64,000 bases of DNA from Salinicola sp. (lineage in GTDB: Bacteria; Pseudomonadota; Gammaproteobacteria; Pseudomonadales; Halomonadaceae): NCBI GenBank assembly GCA_002695065.1, contig NZNW01000006.1, forward strand, positions 1 to 64,000, given 5' to 3'. A model generated the notes under the pieces. That model was not told the DNA's origin. It ran no database searches and was given only the letters and a program-made list of their open reading frames with translations. Positions 5,823 to 44,818 of this stretch are shown in pieces; within the stretch, counting starts at the first letter, position 1; each line of letters opens with the position of its first letter. A program made the position numbers and the translations under genes.

Positions 5823-8048
5823 TCACGCGACCAGCTGACGGGCCAGCTCCATTTCCACAGACTCACCATCGCTGTTTAGAGCTTCTAGCCCGGACTCGGG
5901 GATATCCCCGGAGGTGCTCTGTGCCACTGCGATCTTGCTGGCCATCAGTCGCAGACAGGCAATCTGCGACGTCTGGGCGTAGCCGAAGAACAGCACACGC
6001 ACCGCTCGGTGCTGACCAATACGCCAGGATCTTCGCGCCGCCTGCTGCAGCGTGTAGACGTTCCAACCAGTCTGCATGAACGCGATCGTCGGGAAGTCGA
6101 GAAGATCCAGCCCGGTCTTGACCAGCTCCGGGTTGGTGATCAGCACATCGATCCCCTTCTCGACCTGATCCGCGATCCAGTCCTCCCGTCGACTGGTGTC
6201 GACGCTCGAGCGCAGTACGGCCACTTTGAGGCCCTCTTGCTCGAGCACGCGTTTCAGGCGACTCGTGGTATCGCGCTTGCCGGTGTAGGTGGAGTAGACC
6301 AGCACCTTGCGGCCCTGGGCCCTCTCTGATCGGCATAGCTCGACCAGCTCGTCCTCCTTCGGCATCGTCGACGCTTCGTCGAAAATCGACTTGGCAAAGC
6401 TGATCAGCGCCCGCGATCTCGGATGCTTGACCGCTTCCGGTCGAAAACAGCAGTCAGGCCACGCCAGCAGCACATTGAGCACCACGCCCAGCAAGGTGGT
6501 GTCCTTGTGTGCCAGCGCTTCCCGCAGCGCCTGTGTCAGCTCTCCCGAGAGCTTGTCGTAGGCACTGGCCTGAGCAGACGACATCGGCACTTCCACGAAC
6601 TCTTCGTCATACGGCGGCAGTACATCGCCACCGATGTCCTTGAGTTTGAGGAAGACCGTGAAGGGCAACACGTAACGCAGGATGCCCTTGGGGCCAAACC
6701 CAGGTGCCTTCACCGTGCGCACCGAGGTTTTCCGCCCCTTCGCCGTCTTGTGCCCAGCGCCCTCACGCTCCGAGTAGATGTCCTTGAGGACACCGTGCTC
6801 GCGCATGAAGGTCATGGACGCCGCACCCAGTGAGTTGCGCTGGGGACGATAGCCGTCTTCGATCATCACCGGTGTCAGAATCCGGAAGAGCAGATAGAAC
6901 AGGTCGTCGGCGTAGCCACCCATCAACGTGCCGGTCAGCAAAAGCGTCTTGCGTGCCTTTGCTGCCAATACGCCCATGGCCTGGCCCTGGGCCGACCCCG
7001 CGTTCTTGTACTCATGCCCTTCGTCGACGATCAGCAGATCGAAGAATTGGTCGGGGAGATAGCGCTTTATGAACTCGCTCGGCTGGAAACCACCTTCACC
7101 GAAACCGAATTCGATGTTGGCCATCGCCCGTTCCATTCTCGTCGCCTGTCGATCGTTGAACACCAGGTCGCCGTTCTCGTCCATCAGGTTGATGAACTCG
7201 TGCACGTTGTCGGCCAGCATCGACGAGAGAAACCCCTCCCCGAACTGGTCGACCAGCTTCTCGGACGTCACCTTGCCGATGGTGGGAATGCGCTGCAGCG
7301 CCTTGAGCACCGAACGACGGCGGGCATCCCCTTCGGGCTGCCGCTGTCGTATAAGTGTCCAGAGCTGGCCACCGCATCCCGCGCACGCCTGCTGACGCTC
7401 GGTCTGCTGGAACGACTCGAACCGAATCGGCTCATTGTCGTTGTCGAGGATCATGCGGCCGCAGTCCGGACACGCCGCGAAGCGGCCGGACAGGGTGCGC
7501 CTGGGGGTAGCCACCGGTACCCAGTGAAACCCCATCCGCATCCGTACACGACCCAGCACGAAGAACTCCGGCCGGCCATCGTCTGGCTGTCCCAACTGCT
7601 CGCGCAGTTTGAGCAATTTCGCCAGCGTATCCGGTCCGTTGAGTACCCAGACCCGAGCCTCTGGCACCGTCTCGAGGATCTCTCGCCGCCACTTGTAGAC
7701 CAGGTGCGGCGGAGACACGATCAATGATCGACGATAGCCTTCGGTCGACATCACGGCGGCGACGGCGATCGCCATCATCGTCTTGCCGGTCCCCATCTCG
7801 GCGTTGATCACGCCGGCACGCTCGTTCTGGTCCAGTAGCAGTGCGCAGATGGCGTGAACGACATCTGCCTGTGCCGGGAACGGTTGGCGTGCCAGCGCGT
7901 TCATTACCGCCTGTCGCGCGGGATTCCCTCGACCGTCATAGACCGGGGGGTGGGTGTGATTGAGCGTATCCAGAAGCCCAGCGCCGAACTCGTCGATGAA
8001 ATCGTTGAGCGCGATGAGGTTATCCGATGCTGTGCATGTCATGTTCAT
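5823..8048 (-). CDS. SNF2/DEAD-like helicase with zinc ribbon
   Basis: A 741-residue superfamily 2 helicase or translocase. Motif I is NAEMGTGKT (residues 82-90), DEGH is motif II near residue 350, and the C-terminal RecA-like lobe shows VLVYSTYTG, DVLITNPELVKTGLDL and the SNF2-like motif VI ARRSWRIGQ. Two CxxC pairs (CPDCGRM and CAGCGGQ, roughly residues 190-230) form an inserted zinc ribbon. Of two in-frame ATGs the second (MNMTC) has GGAG at proper distance and is used. It is the last gene of the block and follows the methylase-like gene, a pairing common in PFGI-type ICEs. The role is unproven; DNA processing or anti-restriction during transfer is plausible. Confidence 0.8.
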   Translation of the reverse strand: MNMTCTASDNLIALNDFIDEFGAGLLDTLNHTHPPVYDGRGNPARQAVMNALARQPFPAQADVVHAICALLLDQNERAGVINAEMGTGKTMMAIAVAAVMSTEGYRRSLIVSPPHLVYKWRREILETVPEARVWVLNGPDTLAKLLKLREQLGQPDDGRPEFFVLGRVRMRMGFHWVPVATPRRTLSGRFAACPDCGRMILDNDNEPIRFESFQQTERQQACAGCGGQLWTLIRQRQPEGDARRRSVLKALQRIPTIGKVTSEKLVDQFGEGFLSSMLADNVHEFINLMDENGDLVFNDRQATRMERAMANIEFGFGEGGFQPSEFIKRYLPDQFFDLLIVDEGHEYKNAGSAQGQAMGVLAAKARKTLLLTGTLMGGYADDLFYLLFRILTPVMIEDGYRPQRNSLGAASMTFMREHGVLKDIYSEREGAGHKTAKGRKTSVRTVKAPGFGPKGILRYVLPFTVFLKLKDIGGDVLPPYDEEFVEVPMSSAQASAYDKLSGELTQALREALAHKDTTLLGVVLNVLLAWPDCCFRPEAVKHPRSRALISFAKSIFDEASTMPKEDELVELCRSERAQGRKVLVYSTYTGKRDTTSRLKRVLEQEGLKVAVLRSSVDTSRREDWIADQVEKGIDVLITNPELVKTGLDLLDFPTIAFMQTGWNVYTLQQAARRSWRIGQHRAVRVLFFGYAQTSQIACLRLMASKIAVAQSTSGDIPESGLEALNSDGESVEMELARQLVA

Positions 8049-8067
8049 GTCCATCTCCGAAAGAAAA

Positions 8068-8103
8068 CGGGCAGAACACGCCCCACGGGCAATGTTCTGC
8101 CCG
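8068..8103 (-). promoter_or_regulatory. Leader hairpin upstream of helicase gene
   Basis: CGGGCAGAAC pairs with GTTCTGCCCG (10 bp) around an inner stem GCCC-CAC-GGGC. It ends 20 bp before the ATG. One of the shared leader hairpins of the two small-gene blocks. Confidence 0.6.
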
Positions 8104-8113
8104 TGGAGGGTTG

Positions 8114-8132
8114 GCTCGCTCAGTGAGCGAGC
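8114..8132. repeat. Hairpin just after methylase-like gene
   Basis: GCTCGCTCA and TGAGCGAGC form a 9-bp inverted repeat with a one-base centre, immediately downstream of the methylase-like stop codon. There is no T-tract, so a terminator is doubtful. Confidence 0.45.
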
Positions 8133-8140
8133 ATGGTGGT

Positions 8141-9319
8141 TTATGCCGCTTCGGTATCCGAGTCGGCGGATCCAGGTTGTGCCGGCTCGTCTTGCGCCGG
8201 CGTTGAGGTGATCTTGAAAAGCCGCCCCTTGTCGGGAGAGTTTGGCGTCACGTCCCAGGCCATAATGGCTGGGACGAAACGGTCGGTCAGAATTCGACGC
8301 TCACTGATGTTGCCGTCAGCGTCTTCACTAAACTCGACCTTCGCCGTCTTCTCCTTGAAGGTGTCGCCCTTCACGACCAATTGACGCCCCGATCGGGCCG
8401 TCACAACGCCCGATATGCCTCCTGCTGCCAGTGACAGCGCAAGGTGCCAGCTCGAAAGCTGACGCAACGGACGTCGCTGCGTGCCCCCTCCTGTCCAGAA
8501 AGCCAGGTTGAAGCTCGGCCAAAGGCCACCTAAGCGACCTATTTCCTGCTCCAACTGTTCAGGCTCCAGGGAGACCCGGTAGCAGTGTGGCGTGCTGCTC
8601 GTTGCCGGCGGCACGTCATAGGGTTCATCACACCAGGTCAACGGCAACGGCGCGGGCTTGAGTTCTCCCGATCCGATCCGCTGCAACAGCTTCCTGGTCT
8701 GCTTGGCCTGATCGTTGGCCAGTAGTGCATTACGCTTCGTGCGAACGCCGAAGACGACGACCTGCTGGAAGGTGTCGATCGCTGCCTCGAACGCGGTAAC
8801 GCGATCGAAGTGTTGGCTGACCCAGCCCGACAGCTCATCATCGAAGACGTATCGGGGCACGATCATCATCAGGATCCCGCCGTACTGCAGAAGGTGAACA
8901 CAACGCTGGTAGAACAGCTTTTCCAAACGCTGCCTACCTTTGCCCGCATACCCCTTGCTGCCACCGGTCTCGCTGACAAGATCGCCGTAGGGTGGATTGA
9001 AGAACATCATCCCGAACGCGCGTTGAGAGATGACGGTATCCATCAGATCCGACTGGATGCCGACATCGACCAAACCCTGCATGTGGCGAGCTCGCTCAAG
9101 ATCGTATTCGATACCGTAAGCATCGGTTCGATCTCGGCCTAATCGGTGAGTGCTTTCTAGGATCGCGTGGCCTTCGCCGGCACACGGATCCAGGATGCGT
9201 ACCCGCTGATCGTGCGAGGTGTCCAGTGCATTCAGGACACGATCGATCGTGTCCTCGTCGGTCGGGTAATATCCGTTCTTGGCGAAATTGCGCGCCAGGC
9301 GTGGAAACATCAGAGCCAT
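8141..9319 (-). CDS. N6-adenine methyltransferase-like protein (DUF6094 type)
   Basis: A 392-residue protein with the class I methyltransferase SAM-binding motif DPCAGEG (residues 44-50) and the catalytic-type NPPY motif (108-111), the arrangement of N6-adenine DNA methylases. The C-terminal half is family-specific and has no target-recognition domain I can name. Such proteins recur in PFGI/pKLC102-type elements beside a large helicase, as here, and may modify incoming element DNA against host restriction. Activity and target site are not visible from sequence. It follows the upstream gene by only 15 bp, so the two are cotranscribed. Confidence 0.8.
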   Translation of the reverse strand: MALMFPRLARNFAKNGYYPTDEDTIDRVLNALDTSHDQRVRILDPCAGEGHAILESTHRLGRDRTDAYGIEYDLERARHMQGLVDVGIQSDLMDTVISQRAFGMMFFNPPYGDLVSETGGSKGYAGKGRQRLEKLFYQRCVHLLQYGGILMMIVPRYVFDDELSGWVSQHFDRVTAFEAAIDTFQQVVVFGVRTKRNALLANDQAKQTRKLLQRIGSGELKPAPLPLTWCDEPYDVPPATSSTPHCYRVSLEPEQLEQEIGRLGGLWPSFNLAFWTGGGTQRRPLRQLSSWHLALSLAAGGISGVVTARSGRQLVVKGDTFKEKTAKVEFSEDADGNISERRILTDRFVPAIMAWDVTPNSPDKGRLFKITSTPAQDEPAQPGSADSDTEAA

Positions 9320-10009: not shown

Positions 10010-10288
10010 TCAGTTCGACTCGAAGCGCCGCGCGTGCGAGTTGTAGCGCCTGGCTTGGCTACCCGCGCGAATCGGCGTCAATCCCGCTTGATAAATCTCC
10101 GTCAGGTATTGCCCTCGGAAGTCAATGGCGGCCTCGGCAGCCCCCTCCGGTATACCTTCTCCCACAAAGAATGCGACCAGTTCCTGATCGGTCGCGATCT
10201 CATTGTTCGAAAGCAGATCCTCAATAGTTTGAAGCTGTGAATCCGTGAGTTCGACGAACCGTGGATCCATGTGGTGTCGATCGTTCAT
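10010..10288 (-). CDS. Small hypothetical protein
   Basis: A 92-residue acidic protein (MNDRHHMDPRFVELTD) with a basic, Arg-rich tail. The N-terminal 60 residues look helical. An AAGGAG site 6 bp upstream supports the start. It sits between a hairpin leader upstream and another hairpin downstream inside the small-gene block. I do not recognise a family. Confidence 0.65.
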   Translation of the reverse strand: MNDRHHMDPRFVELTDSQLQTIEDLLSNNEIATDQELVAFFVGEGIPEGAAEAAIDFRGQYLTEIYQAGLTPIRAGSQARRYNSHARRFESN

Positions 10289-10324
10289 TCCAATCTCCTT
10301 GGAGAATCAATGACGAGCGATCCC

Positions 10325-10356
10325 TCCCCGGCGGAAAGGAGTCCGCCCGTCGGGGA
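10325..10356 (-). promoter_or_regulatory. Leader hairpin upstream of gene ending at 10010
   Basis: TCCCC pairs with GGGGA outside and GGCGGA with TCCGCC inside, with an asymmetric internal loop of CGTC. It lies between the ArdC stop codon and the next gene. Confidence 0.55.
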
Positions 10357-10363: not shown

Positions 10364-11518
10364 TTACGCCGCAACGGCTGTGGCGTAATTCCAGGTTTGA
10401 GTTGACGCGTCGAACACGTAGCCAAGCTGTTTCAGACGAACCGTCTGGGCTCGGAACGTGCCGCGATCGACCGTGGGATCCAGCTTGACGCTATCGCCCA
10501 GCGGCCACTGATGGCCGAATAGTTCGATGTCCTGGTCATCGACGGGAGGACGCTTCGGCGGAGCCTCGGCAGTCTTCCGGTCAACGGTGTCAGGCGCATC
10601 GGTCATATCCGGTGCATGCCACTCGGCATAGGCTTGCTTGAGAAACTCAGCCGCGAGCCTTGCCGCACCCGACGCCCGAAAGATGGCTTTCTTATCCTCC
10701 TTCAACACCTGAATCCAATTGGCGATGTAGAAGTTGTCGAAAGCCTCGTTGCGAATGCCAAAGTGACCGCACATGAAGGCGCTCCCCATCTGAGCCACCA
10801 GTTCTTCAAAGGCGTATTCCGGCGTACCGAAACCGTTGAAGTCCGTGATGCCCGGACGGGCCAGGCGCGATCCATGCCCTGTCGCGTGCGTGAGTTCATG
10901 GAGTGCGGTGCTGTAGTAGCCTTCCGCATCGCGAAACCGCTCCTTTGCCGGCAGCAGCACGCGATCTTGAGTAGGCATATACAGCGCCCCTTCACAATCG
11001 CGAGAGTGAACCACCCGGATGCCGCAGCCTTCGATCATCTCGTCCAGAGCATCAATGTTCTGGATGCCATCGACGACATTGGCAGGAGCATTCACGATCT
11101 CGGCGGGAAGGCCATCGCACTGATCGATGTTGAACAGGTTGAAGCCCCGCAGGATGGCAAAATGCTTCTCCCTGGGGTTCCCCTCCTCGTCCAATACGGG
11201 CTCACCGTCATCGTCGACGATTTCCCGCTTCATCGGTTTGTAGAAACAGGCGAGCGTGCTGCGCTCACCCTTACGGACCGTGCCGCCGGCCTCTTTCGCC
11301 TGGCGAAAGGTCAGCCATCGATCCTGAGAGAACTTCTGCTGCTCGGCCATCGTCCACAACAGCGGCACATTGATGCCGCTGTAGGGACGCCCGGAGATGG
11401 CGTTGGACGGCGTGACGAACGTCCTGCCGCCTTCCCAGGGTTTGCCAACCCACGGTATGTTCCCCTGCTCCAGGGACGACACGATTTGGTCCGTGATTGC
11501 TTGGTAGATATCGGCCAT
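10364..11518 (-). CDS. ardC: ArdC-type antirestriction protein with metallopeptidase motif
   Basis: A 384-residue protein. The N-terminal part (about residues 1-130; IPWVGKPWEG, ISGRPYSGIN, VRKGERST) matches the ArdC single-stranded-DNA-binding domain, and HELTH at 207-211 followed by ATGHGSRL is the zinc-metallopeptidase-like part of the family. A C-terminal extension (about 330-384; GHQWPLGDSVKLDP) is extra. ArdC proteins protect incoming single-stranded element DNA from host restriction during conjugation. The start MADIYQ has GAGGAT upstream; an upstream in-frame ATG would add 72 residues that read through the leader hairpins and is rejected. The gene is part of the hairpin-leader block, as expected for an early-entry gene. 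Confidence 0.88.
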   Translation of the reverse strand: MADIYQAITDQIVSSLEQGNIPWVGKPWEGGRTFVTPSNAISGRPYSGINVPLLWTMAEQQKFSQDRWLTFRQAKEAGGTVRKGERSTLACFYKPMKREIVDDDGEPVLDEEGNPREKHFAILRGFNLFNIDQCDGLPAEIVNAPANVVDGIQNIDALDEMIEGCGIRVVHSRDCEGALYMPTQDRVLLPAKERFRDAEGYYSTALHELTHATGHGSRLARPGITDFNGFGTPEYAFEELVAQMGSAFMCGHFGIRNEAFDNFYIANWIQVLKEDKKAIFRASGAARLAAEFLKQAYAEWHAPDMTDAPDTVDRKTAEAPPKRPPVDDQDIELFGHQWPLGDSVKLDPTVDRGTFRAQTVRLKQLGYVFDASTQTWNYATAVAA

Positions 11519-11583: not shown

Positions 11584-11603
11584 GATCCCGGTAAGCCGGG
11601 ATC
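11584..11603 (-). promoter_or_regulatory. Second hairpin in ardC leader
   Basis: GATCCCGG, loop TAAG, CCGGGATC: perfect 8-bp stem, lying between the upstream gene's stop codon (11625) and the main ardC leader hairpin. Confidence 0.55.
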
Positions 11604-12101: not shown

Positions 12102-12629
12102 TTAGGCAGGCAGGACGGTGGCCTTCCAGGTATTGCGATGCGAATTCACCGTGCGGTGATTTACAACGCGGCCCTGGTCATTACGGACAGGCTGTTTGAC
12201 GACGACCGCTTCTCGACCCAGAAACTCGAGGGCAACGTCATCTCCAACCGCCAGTGGTGTCTGATGCGCAACGCGCTTTAAATCGACACCCCACAAGGTC
12301 TTTTCCGCACCACGGTCGAGCCGTAGCGTAATGAAGTAACTCGGGTTATTCGCCTCATCGAACTCGAAAGGCGCTTCCCCCAGCTTGAGTATCTCGCCTT
12401 GGAAAGCCGAGCCTTTGATCGGAGTCTTGTTCCCGCCCGAAGACGAGTCGGAGGCTTCCGAATCAGAAGCCCCGCCCCATGCCATCTGAACGATCCCCAG
12501 AGCCTTGAGCACGAAAAGAATCGCCAGCGTCAGCCAGGTCCACCGGAGTGCATCGGGCAGAACAGAAGGCAACATCAGCGGTACGAGTACCGATAGCAGC
12601 AAAGCGCGAGAGCCTTTGAATGGATTCAT
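12102..12629 (-). CDS. Membrane-anchored protein with TraI/ICE-type C-terminal domain
   Basis: A 175-residue protein with two N-terminal hydrophobic segments (residues 8-50: LLLSVLVPLML and WTLAILFVLKALGI), a Ser-rich linker, and a C-terminal domain (about 75-175). The pattern FEFDEANNPSYFITLRLDRG then LWGVDL and LEFLGREAVVVKQP resembles the small domain found at the C-terminus of TraI-type relaxases and some ArdC-like proteins. It might bring that domain to the membrane. The start MNPFKGS has GGAG upstream, in contrast to a longer reading. Function not known. Confidence 0.65.
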   Translation of the reverse strand: MNPFKGSRALLLSVLVPLMLPSVLPDALRWTWLTLAILFVLKALGIVQMAWGGASDSEASDSSSGGNKTPIKGSAFQGEILKLGEAPFEFDEANNPSYFITLRLDRGAEKTLWGVDLKRVAHQTPLAVGDDVALEFLGREAVVVKQPVRNDQGRVVNHRTVNSHRNTWKATVLPA

Positions 12630-12666
12630 GATGTATCTCCAGTGGATAGCAAGGAGAAACACCATC

Positions 12667-12733: not shown

Positions 12734-12958
12734 TTAAGCGAAAAACTTGATCGCCGAGAGGAAAGCAACGGCAGCGACCAGCATGCCGCCAAGACGAATC
12801 GTCAGAGCCTGGGACAAACGCTGCTCCAGCTCTTTCAAATCCTGCTTGGTTGCCAGGTCACGCATATCATCCTCCAAGGCATCAACCACCGCTCTTGCCT
12901 TGTCTGCAGAGACGTTGATGTCGCGCAAGGCGTCATACAACGGTATGGCGTGTTTCAT
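12734..12958 (-). CDS. Small coiled-coil membrane protein
   Basis: A 74-residue protein: a charged helical part (residues 15-50; ALEDDMRDLATKQDLKELEQRL) likely to form a coiled coil, then one C-terminal membrane segment (GGMLVAAVAFLSAIKFF). This build resembles CCDC90/DUF1640-type small proteins. The start MKHAIPL has CAGGAG 7 bp upstream; a longer in-frame reading would run through the leader hairpin and the 105-bp repeat. It is the first gene of the small-gene block, directly after the 105-bp repeat element. Confidence 0.65.
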   Translation of the reverse strand: MKHAIPLYDALRDINVSADKARAVVDALEDDMRDLATKQDLKELEQRLSQALTIRLGGMLVAAVAFLSAIKFFA

Positions 12959-12985
12959 GGGAATCTCCTGTTGAAGCGGGAGACT

Positions 12986-13012
12986 CCCTGCCAGGGAAAT
13001 CTCCCTGGTGGG
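12986..13012 (-). promoter_or_regulatory. Leader hairpin upstream of gene ending at 12734
   Basis: CCAGGGA, loop AATC, TCCCTGG, with CCC and GGG further out. It lies between the 105-bp repeat element and the first gene of the block. Confidence 0.55.
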
Positions 13013-13021
13013 TAGTGAGGC

Positions 13022-13126
13022 AGCATCCAACTCTGGCGAGCGCCGCGTTTCAGGATGCGTTGCGGCGTTGGGATTGCCCCGGAGGGCTAAGGGCGCTGCT
13101 ATTACCGTCAGCAGCCAACGTGGTAC
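13022..13126 (-). repeat. 105-bp tandem-pseudoknot element, copy A (STAXI-like)
   Basis: This stretch matches 44714-44818 at 101 of 105 positions by eye. On the plus strand GCATCC pairs with GGATGC while CGCCGC in its loop pairs with GCGGCG just downstream, a classic H-type pseudoknot. A second unit has GTTGG/CCAAC, GCCC/GGGC and GCTGCT/AGCAGC, with TACC in the last loop able to pair with GGTA downstream. Two of the four differences fall in the small GCCC/GGGC loop (CGGA against CAAA), leaving stems intact. It stands upstream of the ardC block. Tandem pseudoknots beside ardC, ssb and topoisomerase genes are the description of the STAXI motif; I infer the match and cannot run a covariance search. 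Strand is a guess from the genes it heads. Confidence 0.65.
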
Positions 13127-13594
13127 AGCACAAGGATAGCCAGATAGCGATAGCGGAATCAATATCCCCTGCCCCATCACCCGGCCTCGTGAGCATGCCC
13201 CCCTCCCTGTTCATCGCATCGAAAGTGAAGCAAGACGTGGAGATTAGAAAATTAGTCTATACGACCTATTACACAATGAGACATTGCACTACATTGGATG
13301 CAGGGAACGAGTATTGAAATGACGACGCGATAGGCATCCGCGTTCGCGGTAGCCGTGGCGGGTTTCGACCCAAAGCGGACGTACTGGGCGAAGTCTGCGT
13401 GCATGTTCATCGATGTTGTGCAGCCGGCACTATGATCGGTGTTATATTAGCCACCCCGTACTTAACCTTCCTGTTTTTCAATAGGTTATGGTGAAAAAGG
13501 CGCGCAGCATAACATTATTGAACGTGCCTGTGCGTTCATTCAATATCAGAGTATTCCATCTAACACCTGTTAACAGGCAAGGCAATTCAGGCCT
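13127..13594. other. Gene-free leader of cargo hotspot
   Basis: A 468-bp stretch without a convincing gene between the structured element and the cargo genes. It holds a GTTATAT-like cassette boundary at 13441-13447, an inverted repeat TGAACG-N8-CGTTCA at 13519-13538, and a perfect palindrome CCTGTTAACAGG at 13566-13577 just before the next start codon. AAGCGGACGT near 13375 recurs inverted near 17131 (ACGTCCGCTT), flanking the cargo. Base composition falls from GC-rich to AT-rich along it. Confidence 0.5.
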
Positions 13595-14317
13595 ATGAGC
13601 AAGACTAAAAAAGAAACTACGACCGAGAGCATTACTCCTGTACAGTACTCAGAGTATTTTCGAGGGAAGGAAGATAAGGCTCTTGAGCGAGCGCAAGATA
13701 TCCGAAAATTCGAAATCGATCTCTACTGGAAGCGGGCTACCTATTTCTGGACCTTTATCGGCGCCACTTTGGCGGGCTTTCTAGCTATACAAGCATCAGG
13801 AGCACAGAATAAGCAGGATCTGTCTGTAATTCTATCCTGCTTGGGTGTGGTGTTTTCCTTTGCGTGGCTCTGTGTTAACCGGGGCAGCAAGTTCTGGCAG
13901 GAGAATTGGGAAAAGCACGTAGATATTTTGGAGAACGAAGTCACTGGGCCACTCTACAAGGTCATTTTGTCTCGGAATTTGGACGATTACACAAAATCAG
14001 AGAAGGTTCGCGATTGGGTAACTGGCCCTAGCGCTTTATCAGTTTCGAAAATAAATCAGCTCATTAGCCTATATGTGTCTATTTTATGGGTACTACTGCT
14101 CTGGTATTCCCTCCCCCCTTTCGACTTTGCAGCTCAGGCCAACTGGTTCTACTGTGGATTAATAGGCCTGTCGGTAGCTACGTGCGTTTCGTTCGTGTTC
14201 AAGCTTGGCAGAACATACAGTGGCGGATATTGGCATAATGCAGAGCTGCGTAAGTCTCGAATAAAACCAGCTAACAATCAAATGCAGCCGACGCCGAAGG
14301 ACGGAGTGGCTGATTAG
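13595..14317 (+). CDS. Four-helix membrane protein in a likely integron cassette
   Basis: A 240-residue protein with a charged N-terminal half-helix (residues 20-48) and about four membrane segments (near 50-72, 78-98, 152-172, 182-205). It has no enzyme motif. The pattern KRATYFWTFIGATLAGF recalls a widespread family of small membrane proteins (possibly RipA-like), but I cannot name it firmly. Its C-terminus NNQMQPTPKDGVAD is a typical read-through of an integron attC site, and such an attC-like site overlaps the stop codon. It is much lower in GC than the ICE backbone and points the other way, so it was acquired separately. A partner role with the following TrlF-like gene is possible but unproven. 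Confidence 0.6.
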   Translation: MSKTKKETTTESITPVQYSEYFRGKEDKALERAQDIRKFEIDLYWKRATYFWTFIGATLAGFLAIQASGAQNKQDLSVILSCLGVVFSFAWLCVNRGSKFWQENWEKHVDILENEVTGPLYKVILSRNLDDYTKSEKVRDWVTGPSALSVSKINQLISLYVSILWVLLLWYSLPPFDFAAQANWFYCGLIGLSVATCVSFVFKLGRTYSGGYWHNAELRKSRIKPANNQMQPTPKDGVAD

Positions 14318-14328
14318 TGGCGTTAGGC
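14271..14328 (+). repeat. attC-like recombination site 1
   Basis: CTAAC at the left pairs with GTTAG at the right, AATCA with TGATT and CAGCC with GGCTG inside; the right core GTTAGGC fits the GTTRRRY consensus. Length 58 bp. It covers the last codons of the membrane protein gene and separates it from the TrlF-like gene. Confidence 0.6.
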
Positions 14329-14371
14329 CGTGCGAACTTTCTCAGATTCATTTTGAGTTTAAGGAGATAAA

Positions 14372-17038
14372 ATGATCGGATCAATTTGGAACAAGTGGGA
14401 TTTACATATTCATTCTCCCTATACTCATCAAGAAAATCAGTTTGGCAACACGACTATTGATAATTATGTGGACAAGTTAATTTCATCAGAGATAAGCTTG
14501 ATTGGCGTTACAAACTATTTCTTTTTTGAAGCTGGTGAGCTGGATGAAATCAGAGAAAAAATAAGAGAAAAGAACGCAAAAATCACAGTTTTAGGAAATC
14601 TTGAATTTCGTATCGATCAGCAAAATAAAGATGGCGAATGGATAAATGTCCATTGTATCTTTTCGGAGGATCTTAGTACTCAGAAAATAAATGACATTCT
14701 GTCGACACTAGCATTATCTAATACTACTTCTGATAGAAAGAGCATATATTGTTCTCGACAATCTATTGCTGATTCTCAATCTAAGCTATCTGAAACAATA
14801 GTGAATTTCGAATCATTGGTTAAACATCTTAACAAAAATTTAAAATTTGGAATAGACTTTCTAATTGCTGCTTGTCCCAATGGTTATGGCGGGTTTAGGC
14901 CTGATATGACAGAGGGACGCTCATACGCCGTTGCTTTAGAAGTAGAAAAAAGATGTCAAATAATACTTGGTAGACCCCAAGATCGAGATTTTTTCTTAAA
15001 TGAAGATAGATATCCGTTTGCGAAACAAAAACCCGTCTTTTATGCTTCCGACTCACATGATATAGAATCGGTTGGCGCAACATACTCATGGGTTAAGGCT
15101 AAACCGACTTTCGAGGGGTTGAGGCAATCGATTATTGAACCAGATCTTAGAGTACAACAAACAGACGACTTTGTGGAAAAGCAGTACATAAAGCCTTGGT
15201 TTAAATCTGTTGAATTGGGCGGAAAGGTGTTTTCGGGAGAGGAGATTGCTTTCTTTAGTCAGACGATTCCACTAAATCCAAACCTAGTCACGATAATTGG
15301 CGGGAGAGGAACTGGGAAGAGCCTTTTTCTAGACGCAATGCATTCAAGATTTAATCATCGAGCTGAGCACTCTAACGCTCGTAAAGTGAGTGGGGAAGGG
15401 CTTTGTGTTGAACTGGACCAAGGGGATGGAACAGTATTAAAGTTTAATTCTTCATCTAATACCTATTCATATTTACATGTATCTCAAGGAGATGTTCAAC
15501 ATTTTAGCCAAATTCCTGATGATCTAAGCGATGAAATAAAGAGAATGCTTGGAATTTATGGGGTTGACTTTGACTCTGTTAGCAGCTCAGAAATTTCAAG
15601 AAATTTGAGCGATTATAGAACATTCGTTGAATACTGGGAAGATATTGATTCTCAAGGGCAGCGTATTAACACACAGCAATATCAGCAAAATGTTATTGAT
15701 AGTAACACCCAGCTAATCGGTACTCTTACCAACCCGCAGAACAAGCTGCTAATTGAACAGTACCAGAGTAATTCCAAAAGCATTAACGAGAAAAATAAAT
15801 ACATTCATGAAGCAAGAGCTTCGTTAGCGCTCATAAATCGTTACGTGAAAGAGATCAATCAGAGTATCACAAATTTAAACTTAAACGTTCTTTCTCTAGA
15901 GAAATCAGTTTTAATTGATGACTTTGCTCTCAAAGATCCAATTGGCAAAAACATTGAGTCCTGTAATGCTGCGATTGAAAAATTAAAAAAGAGTAATGAT
16001 GATATTGCTGGACAGTTTCGGCAGCAAGGTATTAATCAAGATATATCATCGTTGCTTAACAAAGTAACTGAGTATCAAAAGTCTATAGATCAGGCGTCAG
16101 CGAAATTGGAGGAAATAAATCAAAAGACCTCTAATTACCACGAGTACATCAAAAGGCGTGGTGATCTGGCCTTGTTATACAAGCAACATTTGGATATCCA
16201 AAAAGAGAATATAGATTACGCCTTTCAAAAACTTAAAGCTAAACAGCCGAGCTGGAATAGTGAGCAGAATGAGCTTGTTCAAAGTATACTCTCTGATATA
16301 CATATTGATGGCCGCATAATTTTCAATGCTGCTCGTTTTTACCAAGGCATCGAAGAATGCGTGAATAGAGGTAAATTTAGGGGTACAAGTGAGAGATCGA
16401 CTTTTGAAAGATTGCAAGAAACATTTTGCGTCAATTCAGCGGAAGATTTCTTTAATCTCTTGGCTAATGAAAAAATTATCAATTGTGATGGTGAGCCAAT
16501 CAACATAGAGGATTTCTTTTGGAAGTCTGAGTTTTTCAATAAAGGTGGGCGCTTCGAATTATTGAATTACCTCTTTTCACCTGCAAGTATTAAAAATTAT
16601 CTTTATGCTAATGCTGATTTTCAGTACAAAGGTAAAACGGTCAATAAGCTGTCAGCTGGTCAACGAGGTACATTCTACGTCTGCTTGAAATTAGCGACAG
16701 ATCCATTTGGTAGTCCTTTTGTGTTTGATCAGCCAGAAGATGATTTAGATAATGACTTTATAATGTCGCAGCTTGTGCCTCTTTTTAGAAAAATCAAAAA
16801 GTATCGCCAAGTGATTATTGTGACTCATAATGCTAATTTGGTAGTTAATACAGATGCTGAGCAAGTGATTATTGCTGTAAATCAAGGGGAGAATATTCGC
16901 TACATAGCCGGCTCTGTTGAAGATGGAAATGTTAAAACGAATACAGGAATAAGATCTGACATATGCAACATTTTAGAGGGTGGCAGCTATGCTTTTGAGA
17001 AAAGAGAACGCAAATACGGCATACAGGAGTTAGCCTAA
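14372..17038 (+). CDS. TrlF-like PHP-domain/SMC-type ATPase, probable defence protein
   Basis: An 888-residue protein. The N-terminus carries a PHP-type metal site: DLHIHSPYT (10-18) and ASDSHD (225-230). An ABC/SMC-type ATPase is split around a long helical coiled-coil region (about 470-640): Walker A GGRGTGKS (310-317), signature LSAGQRG (about 759-765), Walker B FVFDQPEDD (about 783-791) and H-loop THN (about 818). This build matches the TrlF-type family and other PHP-SMC defence ATPases, which probably sense and cut foreign DNA or RNA. The start has AAGGAG 8 bp upstream. GC content is far below the backbone. It is bracketed by attC-like sites, as a 2.8-kb integron cassette. Confidence 0.8.
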   Translation: MIGSIWNKWDLHIHSPYTHQENQFGNTTIDNYVDKLISSEISLIGVTNYFFFEAGELDEIREKIREKNAKITVLGNLEFRIDQQNKDGEWINVHCIFSEDLSTQKINDILSTLALSNTTSDRKSIYCSRQSIADSQSKLSETIVNFESLVKHLNKNLKFGIDFLIAACPNGYGGFRPDMTEGRSYAVALEVEKRCQIILGRPQDRDFFLNEDRYPFAKQKPVFYASDSHDIESVGATYSWVKAKPTFEGLRQSIIEPDLRVQQTDDFVEKQYIKPWFKSVELGGKVFSGEEIAFFSQTIPLNPNLVTIIGGRGTGKSLFLDAMHSRFNHRAEHSNARKVSGEGLCVELDQGDGTVLKFNSSSNTYSYLHVSQGDVQHFSQIPDDLSDEIKRMLGIYGVDFDSVSSSEISRNLSDYRTFVEYWEDIDSQGQRINTQQYQQNVIDSNTQLIGTLTNPQNKLLIEQYQSNSKSINEKNKYIHEARASLALINRYVKEINQSITNLNLNVLSLEKSVLIDDFALKDPIGKNIESCNAAIEKLKKSNDDIAGQFRQQGINQDISSLLNKVTEYQKSIDQASAKLEEINQKTSNYHEYIKRRGDLALLYKQHLDIQKENIDYAFQKLKAKQPSWNSEQNELVQSILSDIHIDGRIIFNAARFYQGIEECVNRGKFRGTSERSTFERLQETFCVNSAEDFFNLLANEKIINCDGEPINIEDFFWKSEFFNKGGRFELLNYLFSPASIKNYLYANADFQYKGKTVNKLSAGQRGTFYVCLKLATDPFGSPFVFDQPEDDLDNDFIMSQLVPLFRKIKKYRQVIIVTHNANLVVNTDAEQVIIAVNQGENIRYIAGSVEDGNVKTNTGIRSDICNILEGGSYAFEKRERKYGIQELA

Positions 17039-17377: not shown

Positions 17378-17722
17378 ATGAATGCACTCTTCATAGAACT
17401 ACCGCCTTTCCAGCGAGTCATGGCCCACTACTGGGCTGACGAGACCTTCCGTGAGTTCCAGCAGTACCTCCTCAAGCAGCCTCATGCGGGCGAGGTGATT
17501 CAAGGTACGGGAGGACTACGCAAGGTCCGCTTTCAAGACCCCTCTCGCTCAAAAGGTAAACGCGGTGGCGTCCGAGTCATCTACTACTGGTGGGACGGCG
17601 GGAAGCAATTTTGGCTATTCACGATCTATGGTAAGGATGTCCAGGACGATCTTGCACCTGAGCAGAGAAAGGTGTTGAAGCAGTTACTTGAAGTCGAGAT
17701 CGACGCGAGGAAACGAAAATGA
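17378..17722 (+). CDS. higB: RelE/HigB-type toxin
   Basis: A 114-residue protein of the RelE/HigB superfamily (HigB2-like): MAHYWADETFREFQQYL, GTGGLRKVRF, GGVRVIYYWW and LFTIYGKDVQDDL follow the family's strand-helix pattern with conserved Arg and Lys. Such toxins cleave mRNA on the ribosome. The toxin gene comes first and overlaps the antitoxin by 4 bp, the HigBA order. It probably stabilises the cargo or the whole element. No strong ribosome binding site is visible before this ATG. Confidence 0.85.
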   Translation: MNALFIELPPFQRVMAHYWADETFREFQQYLLKQPHAGEVIQGTGGLRKVRFQDPSRSKGKRGGVRVIYYWWDGGKQFWLFTIYGKDVQDDLAPEQRKVLKQLLEVEIDARKRK

Positions 17723-41507: not shown

Positions 41508-41585
41508 GGGTGGAGCCTCGCGCGGAAACCGGAATGATCATGATCAGGTTCACCGTGCCGGAGGCGGGGAAACGCTGCGACGGGA

Positions 41586-41593: not shown

Positions 41594-41627
41594 TTGCACC
41601 AGCGGTCCTTTTTGCAGGCACAAAAAA

Positions 41628-41645
41628 AGCGCCCCGGAGGGCGCT
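41628..41645 (-). terminator. Rho-independent terminator
   Basis: On the minus strand AGCGCCC-TCCG-GGGCGCT is followed by TTTTTTTGTGCC. It begins 5 bp after the stop codon of the gene ending at 41650 and closes the second small-gene block before the pilL promoter region. Confidence 0.9.
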
Positions 41646-41649
41646 GGAT

Positions 41650-42444
41650 TCAGTATGGGATCACTTCCGTCATGTCGTTTATCGTCGCAATCATCTGCCG
41701 ATCATGGGGCTTTCGGGCACTCCACCCGCACCCGAGATAACCCGCGCAGAACGTCAATGCCTGCTCGGTCGTCTTGAAGTCCTTCAGGAATGTCGCGAGA
41801 TTGGTGGTTGGTGGCCGCACATACACCGCCATCATGTTCCACTCGTCTCGATACCCCACCTCCAGACTGGCTTGGGCATCGGCAGCGCTAGCCACGATCG
41901 CATCGCCGTTGGGACCGCGCCCCGCGATAACCAGCCCAGGAGGCACGGATCCACAGGCTCTCAAGCCCACGACATCCAGCACCTCACCGTGCCATTGACT
42001 ACCGGCAGCACATTGCCGCGCGATGGCCGCTAACGCCTGAGCGTTGGTTCTGTATGGGCCATGCTCGAAAGCCACGACCGCGTAGGCATTGTCGACCACT
42101 GCCAACGACCAGCCCTCCTCGTCTGATGGAAACGGGGCATAACCGCCATCGATCAACGCGTGGTATATGTTTTGAGGGGTTTCACTGTCCCACTCATCGC
42201 CAGACAGCTCTGCTCGGATCCGCTGCAGCAGTACCTGATCCTCGGTCGGGGCCAAGGGATCATCACCACCGCAGTTCAGTTCCTCACAGAGGTAGTCGAT
42301 GTTGACGACCTGCAGGCTATCGCCCGCGATCTCCAGAATTTCCGACGGTATGTCATCCTCCGGTGCCCGTTGCAGAAATCGCAGGGCGGCGAGAATGACG
42401 TCGATATCCAGGCTCGCCAGGGTGTATTTGAGAGACTTGCACAT
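41650..42444 (-). CDS. ICE hypothetical protein
   Basis: A 264-residue soluble acidic protein. The N-terminus (about 1-70) looks helical; the C-terminal two thirds contain two repeated-looking segments around YAVVAFEHGPYRTNAQALAA and NLATFLKDFKTTEQALTFC, perhaps a duplicated small domain. No known motif. Last gene of the second hairpin-leader block, ended by a terminator. Confidence 0.68.
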   Translation of the reverse strand: MCKSLKYTLASLDIDVILAALRFLQRAPEDDIPSEILEIAGDSLQVVNIDYLCEELNCGGDDPLAPTEDQVLLQRIRAELSGDEWDSETPQNIYHALIDGGYAPFPSDEEGWSLAVVDNAYAVVAFEHGPYRTNAQALAAIARQCAAGSQWHGEVLDVVGLRACGSVPPGLVIAGRGPNGDAIVASAADAQASLEVGYRDEWNMMAVYVRPPTTNLATFLKDFKTTEQALTFCAGYLGCGWSARKPHDRQMIATINDMTEVIPY

Positions 42445-42475
42445 GAGGTAGCTCCTTCATGTCGAATGGTGGAGC

Positions 42476-42505
42476 CACCCCATCGGGAATGGCCCCGATT
42501 GGGTG
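42476..42505 (-). promoter_or_regulatory. Leader hairpin upstream of gene ending at 41650
   Basis: CACCC pairs with GGGTG and ATCGGG with CCCGAT, with a C/T mismatch between. Almost the same sequence (GGAGCCATCCCAC, GGCCCCGA) is repeated at 42796-42823. Confidence 0.65.
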
Positions 42506-42523
42506 AATGATTTCAGATGAGAT

Positions 42524-42766
42524 TCAAATCAGCGTGAGCCGCGTCATCGAACGCGTGGCGAAGGCATCGAGCGCCTTCTCAGGGGAATCCCCTGAGAAGG
42601 GTCTATCCTGCGTATCGAACTCGATCCAGGGACCGTGACCATCTTTACGTTCCACGTCGTACGCTTGGCGCAAGTGACCGATAGGACACGCTGGCCCGGC
42701 AGAAGCGCCTTCATAGACGCTGTGAGATTTACCGTTTGCCGAAATCTGCAGGCAGTAAGGTTTCAT
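42524..42766 (-). CDS. Small hypothetical protein
   Basis: An 80-residue protein (MKPYCLQISANGKSHSVYEG) without known motif. The start is chosen at the ATG after GGAGCC; a longer reading of 10 residues is possible. A 27-bp near-perfect palindrome lies inside the coding sequence. Part of the second hairpin-leader block. Confidence 0.6.
   Translation of the reverse strand: MKPYCLQISANGKSHSVYEGASAGPACPIGHLRQAYDVERKDGHGPWIEFDTQDRPFSGDSPEKALDAFATRSMTRLTLI
42574..42600. repeat. 27-bp palindrome inside a gene
   Basis: CCTTCTCAGGGGA and TCCCCTGAGAAGG are 13-bp arms with a one-base centre, within the coding sequence of the 80-residue protein. Confidence 0.7.
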
Positions 42767-42795
42767 GCGGATGGCTCCAGTGAAGAACGGAGCCA

Positions 42796-42823
42796 TCCCA
42801 CCGGGAAATGGCCCCGAGTGGGA
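42796..42823 (-). promoter_or_regulatory. Leader hairpin upstream of gene ending at 42524
   Basis: TCCCAC pairs with GTGGGA and CGGG with CCCG around AAATGGC. A near-copy of the hairpin at 42476-42505. An AATGTTAA motif follows at 42829-42836. Confidence 0.6.
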
Positions 42824-42828
42824 GGGAT

Positions 42829-42836
42829 AATGTTAA
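42829..42836 (-). promoter_or_regulatory. AAYGTTAA motif next to a leader hairpin
   Basis: AATGTTAA, 62 bp before the start of the 80-residue protein. It shares the core but not the longer flanks of the other motifs, so it may be a weak member or chance. Confidence 0.35.
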
Positions 42837-42841
42837 GTCCG

Positions 42842-43426
42842 CTAGGCGGCGCTATACTTCAACGCGCTCTCGGTCGGATCTCCAACGACGTTGCTCCAGC
42901 GATACCGCCATAGCTTGCCGTCGCCATCCTTGCCAATGAAAAACGTCGCCGTGTGGGCACGCACAAACGTGACCGGCGTCGTTCTTTGACCATTGGCATC
43001 CCAGCCAGCCGCCATCTGAATCACCGTACCCGCAGGCATCTCGCTAGCGAGCGTCTTCTGACGTTTGATTTTCAGACGATGCTGACGGCAAGCCTCGCGC
43101 CATGCCACAGCAAACTCTGACTGCACGTCGGACTGTTTCAAAAGCCGCTCCGGGCAGTCGTAGTAGTAGGGATGCATGGATTCATCCATGTCCTTGTAAC
43201 CCCAGCCTCGATCACCTTCGCGACGGCTGCAGGGAGATGGCCCCGACAACAGATACACCGTGATAAAGCGGTAATTCTGCTCCGGCTTGAAGTACAGCAG
43301 GTAGAGCACGTTGCCCCGAAGGGAGTGGTCTATGATCTCGAATCGTCCCGGCTCGTTATGCTCATCGAAGATGTGGCGAACCAGTTCGTCGCGAGATGTC
43401 GTGGTGTAGGGGACAGTCCAGCCCAT
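42842..43426 (-). CDS. ICE hypothetical protein
   Basis: A 194-residue soluble protein (MGWTVPYTTTSRDELVRHIF) with GGAG 8 bp upstream. A conserved-looking pattern YKDMDESMHPYYYDCPERLL and a basic middle are seen; proteins of this look (DUF6927-like) occur in pKLC102-type elements. No function known. Confidence 0.68.
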   Translation of the reverse strand: MGWTVPYTTTSRDELVRHIFDEHNEPGRFEIIDHSLRGNVLYLLYFKPEQNYRFITVYLLSGPSPCSRREGDRGWGYKDMDESMHPYYYDCPERLLKQSDVQSEFAVAWREACRQHRLKIKRQKTLASEMPAGTVIQMAAGWDANGQRTTPVTFVRAHTATFFIGKDGDGKLWRYRWSNVVGDPTESALKYSAA

Positions 43427-43465
43427 GGGAGTTCTCCTGAGTGTGGTTGCATCAGAAGAGACGTC

Positions 43466-43494
43466 CCCTACAGGGAGCGATCTCCCCTGATGGG
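43466..43494 (-). promoter_or_regulatory. Leader hairpin upstream of gene ending at 42842
   Basis: CAGGGAG pairs with CTCCCCTG with one bulged C, and CCC with GGG further out. It stands 39 bp before the start codon. Confidence 0.5.
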
Positions 43495-43575
43495 TCATGA
43501 AGGGTGTGAAACGACAGAACGCCCCAAGGGGCGTTCTGATCGAGGGAGGGCGAAACCTGGTGGCTTCTTCCCGAT

Positions 43576-43704
43576 TTACTGTGTCTTGAGTTCTTTGCGC
43601 CGATTGTCTTCCCGATGGATAGCGCGGAAGCTACCCGTCAGGATGACAGCCGATGCCACAAGGAATGGCAGCATGACAAGCGCGTAAGACGAGAAATTGC
43701 TCAT
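43576..43704 (-). CDS. 42-residue membrane microprotein
   Basis: A 42-codon gene (MSNFSSYALVMLPFLVASAV then a basic tail ending KELKTQ) with one membrane helix (about 7-24). Its ATG overlaps the TGA stop of the upstream gene (ATGA), and a GGAGG site lies upstream, so it looks genuinely translated and coupled to its membrane-protein neighbour. Confidence 0.6.
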   Translation of the reverse strand: MSNFSSYALVMLPFLVASAVILTGSFRAIHREDNRRKELKTQ

Positions 43705-43943
43705 TGACCATCAGCCTCCTTGGCTGTGTCCGCAATTTGTAGATCCAGTCTAACCTTGCCATAACAGCTCAACAAGGCAATGACCAGCGCCAGTGTTCCT
43801 GCAACAGCACCGCTTAAGGCACTCCCAGCGGGACCAATCACGGCACCCACGACACAAGCAGCCAGCACGGTTGATGCGATCCGTTCAAGCGCCTCTGACA
43901 GAGCTCGCCATAGCTGCAGGCGGAACAAAGGATCTTGATTCAT
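43701..43943 (-). CDS. Small membrane protein
   Basis: An 80-residue protein with two adjacent membrane helices (about 22-62; Gly/Ala-rich AACVVGAVIGPAGSALSGAVAG). The ATG at MNQDPLF is chosen because GGAG lies 8 bp before it. It is coupled to the 42-residue microprotein downstream. Family unknown. Confidence 0.62.
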   Translation of the reverse strand: MNQDPLFRLQLWRALSEALERIASTVLAACVVGAVIGPAGSALSGAVAGTLALVIALLSCYGKVRLDLQIADTAKEADGQ

Positions 43944-43979
43944 CGGCATATCTCCAGAGTACTGCGCGGAGAAACACCG

Positions 43980-44008
43980 CCCGTTTGGGGAGTGAATCCC
44001 CAAGCGGG
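43980..44008 (-). promoter_or_regulatory. Leader hairpin upstream of gene ending at 43701
   Basis: CCCG pairs with CGGG and TTGGGGA with TCCCCAA around GTGAA, with one T/G pair. On the minus strand the loop reads TTCAC, as in the hairpin at 44656-44683. Confidence 0.65.
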
Positions 44009-44029
44009 TGGAATGAAAACCGACACTGA

Positions 44030-44047
44030 CGGGAAGCGAACTTCCCG
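44030..44047 (-). terminator. Hairpin after DUF3577 gene
   Basis: On the minus strand CGGGAAG-TTCG-CTTCCCG, 25 bp after the stop codon, with only a weak T-rich tail (GGTTTTC). Either a weak terminator or an RNA-stabilising hairpin. Confidence 0.45.
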
Positions 44048-44071
44048 ATCAGCGCGGCGAGTAAGGTGAGA

Positions 44072-44605
44072 TCAAGCGGCGACCGTTTCGGCAGCCCCTA
44101 CCGAGCCCATGTCACCGGTCTGCGGCGCAGTGCCGGCATCCGATGACCGAGCCTCATCCTGCTGAGTGTTGGTCTCTATCGAGGCCGTCTCGTCGCGCCG
44201 GGGCGCTTCGTAGACTTTCTCGCCATCGACCTTCACCCAGTTGATGAACAGCAAACGCGCCTTGAGGCTAACGGCAGTTTCACCTGCGCGGTCGCCCTTG
44301 GTACGCGTGAACGTATCGGTATAGAGATCACCGAGTTTGAAACCGATCAGAATCTTGGGCTCAGCAAGCCCCTTCTCCTGACGATCGGCCACGGTGGCGC
44401 TGAACTTCTTGACCAGTTTCTGGGCTTCCTGACCGCTAACGCGGCAGTCGAAGCGACGATAGTCCACATCATCGGCAGGACCGGTGAGTGCCGATATGTC
44501 GCAAGCCCAGAAGGCATCGCCACGTTTCGGGGTCACTTCGCGGATCCGGTTTACGTAACCGACGCCAGTGATGTGCAGGTCGAAGAATTGAGTATCGTTA
44601 GACAT
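44072..44605 (-). CDS. DUF3577 (STY4534-family) ICE replication protein
   Basis: A 177-residue protein (MSNDTQFFDLHITGVGYVNRIREV) with the DUF3577 pattern FWACDISALTGPADDVDYRRFDCRVSG and LIGFKLGDLYTDTF, then a disordered acidic tail. The fold is probably OB-like and single-strand binding, and members are annotated as pathogenicity-island replication proteins. AAAGGAG 7 bp upstream sets the start. It heads the second small-gene block, right after a 105-bp structured element and a leader hairpin. Confidence 0.82.
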   Translation of the reverse strand: MSNDTQFFDLHITGVGYVNRIREVTPKRGDAFWACDISALTGPADDVDYRRFDCRVSGQEAQKLVKKFSATVADRQEKGLAEPKILIGFKLGDLYTDTFTRTKGDRAGETAVSLKARLLFINWVKVDGEKVYEAPRRDETASIETNTQQDEARSSDAGTAPQTGDMGSVGAAETVAA

Positions 44606-44655
44606 GGTGTTGCTCCTTTCGGATTGAGTCGACGGAATCCGGGAGACACACCATC

Positions 44656-44683
44656 CCCATCGGGGAGGTGAATCCCCGGTGGG
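44656..44683 (-). promoter_or_regulatory. Leader hairpin upstream of DUF3577 gene
   Basis: CCCATCGGGGA pairs with TCCCCGGTGGG (one T/G wobble) around GGTGAA. On the minus strand it is followed by GATGGTGTGTCTCC, similar to the string at 12661. Confidence 0.65.
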
Positions 44684-44713
44684 AGGTACGGCGAGTGCCG
44701 TGAATTTGGAGGT

Positions 44714-44818
44714 AGCATCCAACTCTTGCGAGCGCCGCGTCTCAGGATGCGTTGCGGCGTTGGGATTGCCCCAAAGGGCTAAGGGCGCTGCTATTACCGT
44801 CAGCAGCCAACGTGGTAC
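44714..44818 (-). repeat. 105-bp tandem-pseudoknot element, copy B (STAXI-like)
   Basis: Second copy of the element at 13022-13126, with the same pairing: GCATCC/GGATGC enclosing CGCCGC that pairs with GCGGCG, then GTTGG/CCAAC, GCCC/GGGC and GCTGCT/AGCAGC with a loop TACC able to pair with GGTA. It lies upstream of the DUF3577 block and about 600 bp after topB. Strand follows the block it heads and is not certain. Confidence 0.65.

Follow-up and report, generated by a model that had tools for sequence, protein, structure and literature searches.

Candidate two-state RNA leaders before the early genes of an integrative and conjugative element in Salinicola sp.

The stretch of DNA analysed here (the window) comprises positions 1 to 64,000 of contig NZNW01000006.1 from Salinicola sp., and it carries a large part of an integrative and conjugative element (ICE) of the ICEhin1056/pKLC102/clc class. 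This report concerns the leaders of genes in two minus-strand blocks of this ICE, which are predicted to fold into two alternative structures, one masking and one freeing the ribosome binding site. The tRNA genes at 60.35-60.93 kb lie beside the minus-strand gene run of the ICE. From the tRNA side, this run consists of the ParA, DnaB, DUF2857, AcaB, DUF3158, SSB and topoisomerase genes, followed on the same strand by block 2, in which the DUF3577 gene comes first, by type IV secretion system genes of the TraD, TraG and TraC types, and by block 1. Block 1 includes genes for an ArdC-type antirestriction protein (ArdcN, MPTase-PolyVal, DUF3275), a DUF6094 methyltransferase and an SNF2-type helicase. 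Many relatives of the DUF3577 protein carry the annotation "STY4534 family ICE replication protein"; that of Salinicola peritrichatus, the nearest named relative fetched, shows 87% identity to the window protein.

Anatomy of the block leaders

Hairpin A, the structure on which the original prediction was based, is present at 12 of the 13 block genes when the minus strand is read as the RNA sense. All twelve hairpins listed in that prediction lie where it had placed them and fit a CCC..GGG..CCC..GGG plan; hairpin A is 23-36 nt long. On its 3' side lies leg C, an anti-Shine-Dalgarno segment, which pairs with the Shine-Dalgarno (SD) sequence and the spacer up to the start codon (leg D) to form hairpin C. 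The alternative partner of leg C is the 5' arm and loop of hairpin A (leg A, which pairs with leg B in hairpin A). This pairing gives hairpin B, in which the SD is freed. Leg C can pair with leg A because the latter resembles the SD region. When folded in the RNA sense, most leaders formed two adjacent hairpins, A and C. The 3' arm of hairpin C is the SD and spacer to the ATG, as seen in the DUF3577 leader, where GGTGTGTCTCC pairs with GGAGCAACACC. The twelve leaders, hereafter called switch leaders, are given below with their scores in the covariance model R1, which is described in the next section.

12956-13012, minus strand: switch leader of gene 12958-12734 (74 aa, function unassigned); hairpin A, leg C and SD arm; 29.5 bits
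12627-12695, minus strand: switch leader of gene 12629-12102 (175 aa); 48.4 bits
12015-12085, minus strand: switch leader of gene 12017-11625 (130 aa); T-rich stretch after hairpin B; 56.3 bits
11516-11578, minus strand: switch leader of the ArdC-type antirestriction gene (start ~11518); 24.9 bits over 11577-11530
10286-10355, minus strand: switch leader of gene 10288-10010, with hairpins A and B but weak pairing of the SD arm; 12.9 bits
9923-9991, minus strand: switch leader of gene 9925-9335; 18.5 bits
8046-8110, minus strand: switch leader of the SNF2-type helicase gene (start ~8048, end 5823); hairpin B strong, C weak; T-rich after B; 22.4 bits over 8109-8040
44603-44683, minus strand: switch leader of the DUF3577 (STY4534-family ICE replication protein) gene 44605-44072; 56.1 bits, in the training set
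43941-44008, minus strand: switch leader of gene 43943-43701; 38.2 bits
43424-43494, minus strand: switch leader of gene 43426-42842; 38.6 bits
42764-42822, minus strand: switch leader of gene 42766-42524; 21.1 bits
42442-42503, minus strand: switch leader of gene 42444-41650; 24.1 bits

The gap between the upstream stop codon and hairpin A ranged from 8 to 86 nt in ten window leaders. Translational coupling via the upstream stop codon was ruled out as a general rule, since these gaps are too variable. Further perfect or near-perfect hairpins lie between the stop codon and hairpin A at 43515-43538, 11584-11603, 8114-8132 and 44030-44048. Rfam scans of the window and of the related loci gave no family at the gathering score at the leaders; a sub-threshold match to BjrC68 (19.7 bits) overlaps the 8048 leader on the opposite strand.

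Gene-specific pairing, covariation and distribution

Specificity was tested by comparing the pairing energy of the arms belonging to one gene with that of arms swapped among genes. For the twelve window leaders, hairpin C was at -13.9 kcal/mol with its own arms and -9.3 kcal/mol with swapped arms (p 2e-5), and hairpin B was at -17.1 and -10.4 kcal/mol, respectively (p at most 1e-5). The control pairing of leg B with the SD showed no own-arm advantage (p 0.42). Two out-of-sample sets gave the same picture. In the first, 40 genes from six annotated plasmid/ICE records were labelled as early by the analyst according to their position; 22 of them, from five records, had a plan-type hairpin and were taken regardless of hairpins B or C. 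Their own arms gave -12.7 versus -8.9 kcal/mol for hairpin C and -18.0 versus -10.8 kcal/mol for hairpin B, and none of 20,000 permutations was as good in either case. The second consisted of 34 DUF3577 leaders, from which L025 (the window itself), L033, L037, L038 and L041 had been excluded. The hairpin was found in 33 of the 34, and 27 leaders remained after removal of duplicates; the A, B and C pairings each gave 0/20,000 permutations. Two control pairings had p values of 0.06 and 0.18 in the first set and 0.83 and 0.11 in the second. The pairing of leg A with leg C was gene-specific (0/5000 swaps as good), whereas that of leg B with leg C was not (395/5000). Hairpin B was the strongest pairing in the swap tests.

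The predicted folds suggest two states. Hairpins A and C together, with the SD masked, were the minimum-energy fold in 54 of 61 leaders. When the SD was held open, 57 of the 61 refolded to hairpin B, the mean cost being 8.5 kcal/mol, and when the leader was cut before the SD, hairpin B was the minimum-energy fold in 57 of the 61. Therefore, hairpin B is predicted for the nascent leader and hairpins A and C for the finished one.

Simpler detectors were tried and abandoned. The energy of the duplex between the SD and upstream sequence did not separate the leaders from the GC-rich background, nor did a lenient fold test, which was passed by 53 of 314 starts. A first three-way score applied to the six records gave a Mann-Whitney p of merely 0.003, because many leaders scored 0, and it was replaced by a plan-based descriptor and a covariance model. 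RNAalifold recovered part of hairpin A and no more from a MAFFT alignment of the leaders, and no pairs from an alignment of the head elements described below; we attribute this shortfall to the non-structural nature of the alignments.

The original prediction held that both arms of the hairpins change together, and proposed a covariance model of leaders from many elements as a check. Such a model (R1) was built from 30 training leaders, one of them from the window, and its pairs do covary: 15 of the 18 model pairs show double-sided change. The covariation score was 0.218, compared with 0.140 in shuffled alignments (0/500) and at most 0.089 in slid versions, and double-changed cells numbered 177 versus 85 in shuffles, in an alignment that had been fitted to the structure and in which some matches come from the opposite strand. 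In the window, R1 gave 21 matches at an expectation value (E) of at most 1, namely twelve minus-strand matches at the leaders and nine on the plus strand at those same palindromes, with none elsewhere in the 64 kb. The weakest leader was that of gene 10288 (E 0.57).

Beyond the window, R1 gave 138 matches in 504 kb at E at most 0.05. Five matches were found in the genome to which the window belongs, all in the two blocks; in that search 150 of 793 candidates were scored and 5 of the 12 leaders recovered, so that weak copies elsewhere are possible. Among 143 Gammaproteobacteria genomes, 11 had R1 matches, nine of them with DUF3577 and two (G077 and G089) in which DUF3577 was not found. Among the remaining DUF3577 genomes, matches were present in 10 of 11. 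In total, 19 of the 20 DUF3577-bearing genomes were matched; the missed one (G226) has the weakest DUF3577 match of the 20, and its locus L038 does match R1 in a smaller search (30.4 bits). In one of the two genomes where DUF3577 was not found, the leaders (locus L082) precede a DUF3275 gene (Pfam) and genes which by eye resemble those for a methyltransferase and a helicase. In the other, loci L080 and L081, in a GC-rich region of undefined type, have nine and five plus-strand matches, respectively, one of them before a DUF3150 gene. An R1 match at L044:10677-10751 lies before a UvrD-type helicase gene outside the early set.

The descriptor, which combines the hairpin plan, the SD-arm pairing and the alternative pairing, was drawn from the same window leaders. 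Among 291 window starts with an SD-like motif, ten passed it, and all ten belong to block genes. In 44 related loci with 2033 starts (L001, L002 and L025 being left out as window copies), 124 matches were found in 41 loci, 123 of them on the DUF3577 strand. Two of these, L013:19581 (dubious, inside a coding sequence) and L018:9483 (opposite strand), were removed before the counts on 117 leaders given below. The Pseudomonas aeruginosa plasmid pY89 has nine matches within 12.7-20.5 kb and none in its pil or tra genes, ICEhin1056 has three (DUF3577, DUF3560 and radC), and locus L017 has 13. The observation that tra genes lack such hairpins thus holds in both the descriptor and the R1 searches. 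Among annotated genes, 18 of the 40 labelled as early passed the descriptor, compared with 2 of 88 others, and these two adjoin DUF3577 on its upstream side. One passing gene, the open reading frame (ORF) of 58 aa at L042:13363-13539, is labelled in PLSDB as the OXA-573 beta-lactamase; this resistance label looks doubtful, because the ORF is short and is preceded by a switch leader.

Head elements, promoters and neighbouring features

A 105-bp structured element had been predicted before both blocks. Both copies were found, extending over 114 nt, together with a divergent third copy that the prediction had overlooked.

13017-13130, minus strand: head element, block 1 copy, 95% identical to the block 2 copy over 114 nt
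44709-44822, minus strand: head element, block 2 copy, with the same identity to the block 1 copy
~45280-45388, minus strand: divergent third head element in the topoisomerase-to-DUF3577 gap, upstream of block 2
13133-13162, minus strand: sigma70-like promoter TTGATT-18-TATCCT, just upstream of head element 13017-13130
44825-44852, minus strand: sigma70-like promoter TTGACG-16-TAATCT, just upstream of head element 44709-44822, with a palindrome in its spacer
45385-45413, minus strand: sigma70-like promoter TTGTCA-17-GATAAT, upstream of the third head element

Relatives of the head element occur in loci L003-L018, mostly in Halomonadaceae. All 18 copies examined from the window and these loci, many of them close relatives, lie directly behind a sigma70-like promoter that reaches at least the 99% background score. 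The head-element hairpin CTGACGGT..ATCAG, named by the analyst, covaries (22 double-changed cells versus 8 in shuffles). The stability of four folded head elements was not above that of shuffles (z -0.56 to -0.01). Between the -35 and -10 boxes of the block 2 promoter, at 44830-44849, lies an operator-like palindrome, ACGCC-N10-GGCGT, which is retained in L003, L004, L006 and L007 and nearly so in L008. An origin of transfer was also considered as a possible identity of the head elements; ICEclc is known to have two, according to the available part of the report (PMC6561031).

In pY89, a Stutzerimonas plasmid and L019, the position of the head element is occupied by the radC RNA (RF01754), which also recurs at several gene starts in the two plasmids. 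Copies in loci L042 and L045 are as follows.

L042: radC RNAs at 11121-11269, 12491-12638, 13746-13896 and 15917-16054
L045: radC RNAs at 12409-12552, 13769-13914 and 17581-17719

These copies are mostly just upstream of genes with switch leaders. The radC RNA lies directly 5' of a switch leader, found by the descriptor or R1, at three of four copies in pY89, at three of three in the Stutzerimonas plasmid and at the one in L019. It takes the place of the head element and is not the switch itself, and it may mark the heads of early transcription units. The preceding promoter passed the 95% score in four of eight radC RNAs elsewhere and in none of one case of psRNA2. The RF01754 model gave no match to the window head elements at E up to 10 (44600-45420) or up to 5 (whole window). 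In a Burkholderia plasmid, psRNA2 (RF02349; L044:13456-13624) is at the head-element position before DUF3577; therefore, this listed small RNA may be an ICE leader. The units of this ICE would each open with a promoter and a head element, followed by switch leaders and genes in alternation.

Other features of the window should be mentioned. Beside block 1, on the plus strand (13595-17038), are genes for an 8xMP membrane protein and an SMC/AAA-like ATPase, possibly defence cargo. At 50619-50803, near the junction of ORFs 50315-50719 and 50790-51557, there is a tandem array of four 37-bp copies with alternating palindromes (TGTTGGTGGCACCAACA / TGTTTCCACTGGAAACA), and a TGAGTTTCCNNNGGGAACTGGGG-like unit occurs three times at 52128-52227 within ORF 51634-52860. 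A viral-contig search with the ArdC-type protein as query gave no match. The idea that the DUF3577 protein is InrR was abandoned in view of the ICEclc gene order in the available part of the report (PMC2892462).

Proposed mechanism, alternatives and known systems

We propose, with a probability of roughly two in three, that each early gene of this ICE class has its own two-state RNA switch controlling the start of translation. The anatomy, the gene-specific covariation of both alternative pairings, the phylogenetic spread, the concentration at early genes and the location of the head elements of this ICE right after sigma70-like promoters were computed directly. In the OFF state, which would be the default, hairpin A (leg A with leg B) would stand beside hairpin C, in which leg C covers the SD and spacer. 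In the ON state, leg A would pair with leg C in a single longer hairpin, B, and the SD would be free. Leg C would act as an anti-SD, and leg A as an anti-anti-SD. Masking of the SD would block translation, as suggested by the measured gonococcal parA switch, and hairpin B would be the translated state. The trigger might be co-transcriptional: hairpin B would form before the SD is made and hairpins A and C after it, so that fresh transcripts would be translatable and old or read-through ones silenced. Alternatively, a trans-acting factor might recognize the CCC/GGGGA..TCCCC/GGG core shared by the leaders. The switch would probably serve to silence the early genes, among them those for antirestriction, helicase and replication proteins, while the element is resident, and to allow their expression in a coordinated pulse on activation or entry. 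It is a tentative extension, possible rather than probable, that the leaders represent a class of gene-by-gene kinetic RNA switches spanning mobile elements, each establishment gene having its own triplet of mutually complementary segments. New transcripts would then expose the SD briefly and lock shut. If so, expression would be a pulse upon new transcription, at activation or arrival in the recipient, and would require no metabolite ligand.

Several points weigh against the proposed switch. All pairing energies and folds are predictions, and the permutation counts are weaker than formal probabilities, the sequences being related. The methyltransferase gene 9319-8141 is the sole block gene without a hairpin, because its spacer of about 15 nt leaves no room for one, and hairpin C is weak at genes 10288 and 8048, where hairpin B is strong. 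The descriptor is failed by 22 of the 40 early-labelled genes, 18 of which lack the plan hairpin entirely. None of five such genes in a Shewanella plasmid passed, despite two weak R1 matches there (E 0.0023 and 0.037). T-rich ends of hairpin B, seen in a minority of leaders, suit an attenuator better than a free-SD state. For gonococcal parA, the accessible part of the report states that no favourable alternative fold was found and that weakening of stem-loop 1 abolished expression (PMC8716806).

A transcription attenuator, in which hairpin B and a U-rich tail form an intrinsic terminator or pause site, hairpin A is the antiterminator and the SD pairing is secondary, seems unlikely but retains some weight on account of the sequence after hairpin B. 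Hairpin A has no T-tract, as noted in the original prediction, whereas T-rich sequence tends to follow the alternative hairpin B: the bases right after it are T-rich and G-poor (T 45, 69, 59, 40, 47 and 44% at positions 1-6), and at least five T occur in the following 8 nt in 25 of 117 leaders, including those of window genes 12017, 10288 and 8048. However, the other 92 leaders have no such tract. The read-through fold, A and C, would still mask the SD, leaving both states off, and the gene-specific pairing of leg C with the SD would have no purpose.

It is rather improbable that the leader is a static mask, with hairpins A and C just holding translation low, the resemblance of leg A to the SD a relic of duplication, and hairpin B never formed. 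The predicted ground state and the cost of opening the SD agree with such a mask. However, leg A, whose matched bases lie partly in the loop of hairpin A, fits leg C gene by gene across genes and hosts, and in the swap tests no pairing was stronger than hairpin B. A relic would be expected to decay.

Sites for a translational regulator of the CsrA/RsmA type, with GGA in hairpin A and in the SD, have little chance of being the explanation. Some ICEs encode CsrA-like proteins, and leg A contains GGA in 80 of 107 distinct hairpins; however, GGA is missing there from the other 27, including four window leaders, and in the folds inspected it is located in the stem or at the loop edge, not in the loop.

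Single-stranded-DNA promoters (Frpo-like) used in the recipient, the other half of what was originally predicted, are highly improbable: the early-gene content does resemble that of plasmid leading regions, where Frpo promoters occur according to the available part of the literature (PMC11541004), but -35/-10 boxes are not enriched in 117 leaders on either strand (means 3.0 and 3.3, compared with 4.3 when these leaders were base-shuffled), hairpin A spans 23-36 nt, the head elements of this ICE sit behind sigma70-like promoters, and the hairpin arms track the SD, a pairing partner that, being the ribosome binding site, is relevant in RNA only. The RNA-switch half of that prediction is supported by the computations: the predicted structure, of which the hairpins are one half, has two states, masks the SD in one of them, and has arms that covary gene by gene.

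The proposed switch bears on how conjugative elements hold many establishment and anti-defence genes quiet in residence yet ready at once on transfer. One compact, sequence-flexible RNA design stands before many such genes of a large ICE class, with hosts ranging from Haemophilus to Halomonadaceae and Burkholderia; none was seen before the transfer genes examined. It offers a computable marker for early genes of unassigned function, a concrete post-transcriptional layer and, with over 100 leaders of three segments each, a natural collection of such sequences.

A literature search of limited coverage found no report of such leaders in ICEs, the nearest case being the gonococcal island. Its traH and parA switches are the closest known systems as judged by their description. 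In the part of the report available (PMC8716806), two tandem stem-loops in the 5' untranslated region of traH, on a transfer-related island, occlude the SD and start codon, and a single alternative stem-loop frees both. Correspondingly, two tandem stem-loops, the second masking the SD, are the minimum-energy fold in 54 of the 61 leaders, and an alternative stem-loop freeing the SD is predicted in 57 when the SD is held open. The traH leader is described as switching once the upstream segment of stem-loop 1 is not available; we take this to imply pairing equivalent to leg B with leg C, whereas here leg A with leg C is the specific pairing. In parA, the leader has two stem-loops, the second masking the SD and start codon. 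Disruption of both raised translation: LacZ increased more than 10-fold in Escherichia coli and about 400-fold in gonococci (p 0.14 in the legend), as given in the same part of that report (PMC8716806). In contrast to parA, with its lack of a favourable alternative fold and its dependence on stem-loop 1, the ICE leaders keep a conserved alternative fold. Access to the SD is set by co-transcriptional folding also in the metastable hairpins of Helicobacter aapA3, but there, in the part of the report available (PMC6733600), transient hairpins mask the SD early, whereas the early fold of the ICE leaders is predicted to expose it. Frpo/ssi single-strand promoters are likewise structured elements ahead of leading-region genes, but they require -35/-10 boxes in the folded single strand, and the promoter scores of the leaders are below those of base shuffles on both strands. 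Only one gene carries the traH switch, whereas a dozen or so per element have such leaders here (12 in the window, 13 in L017); in comparison with known switches, this scale of the design is unusual.

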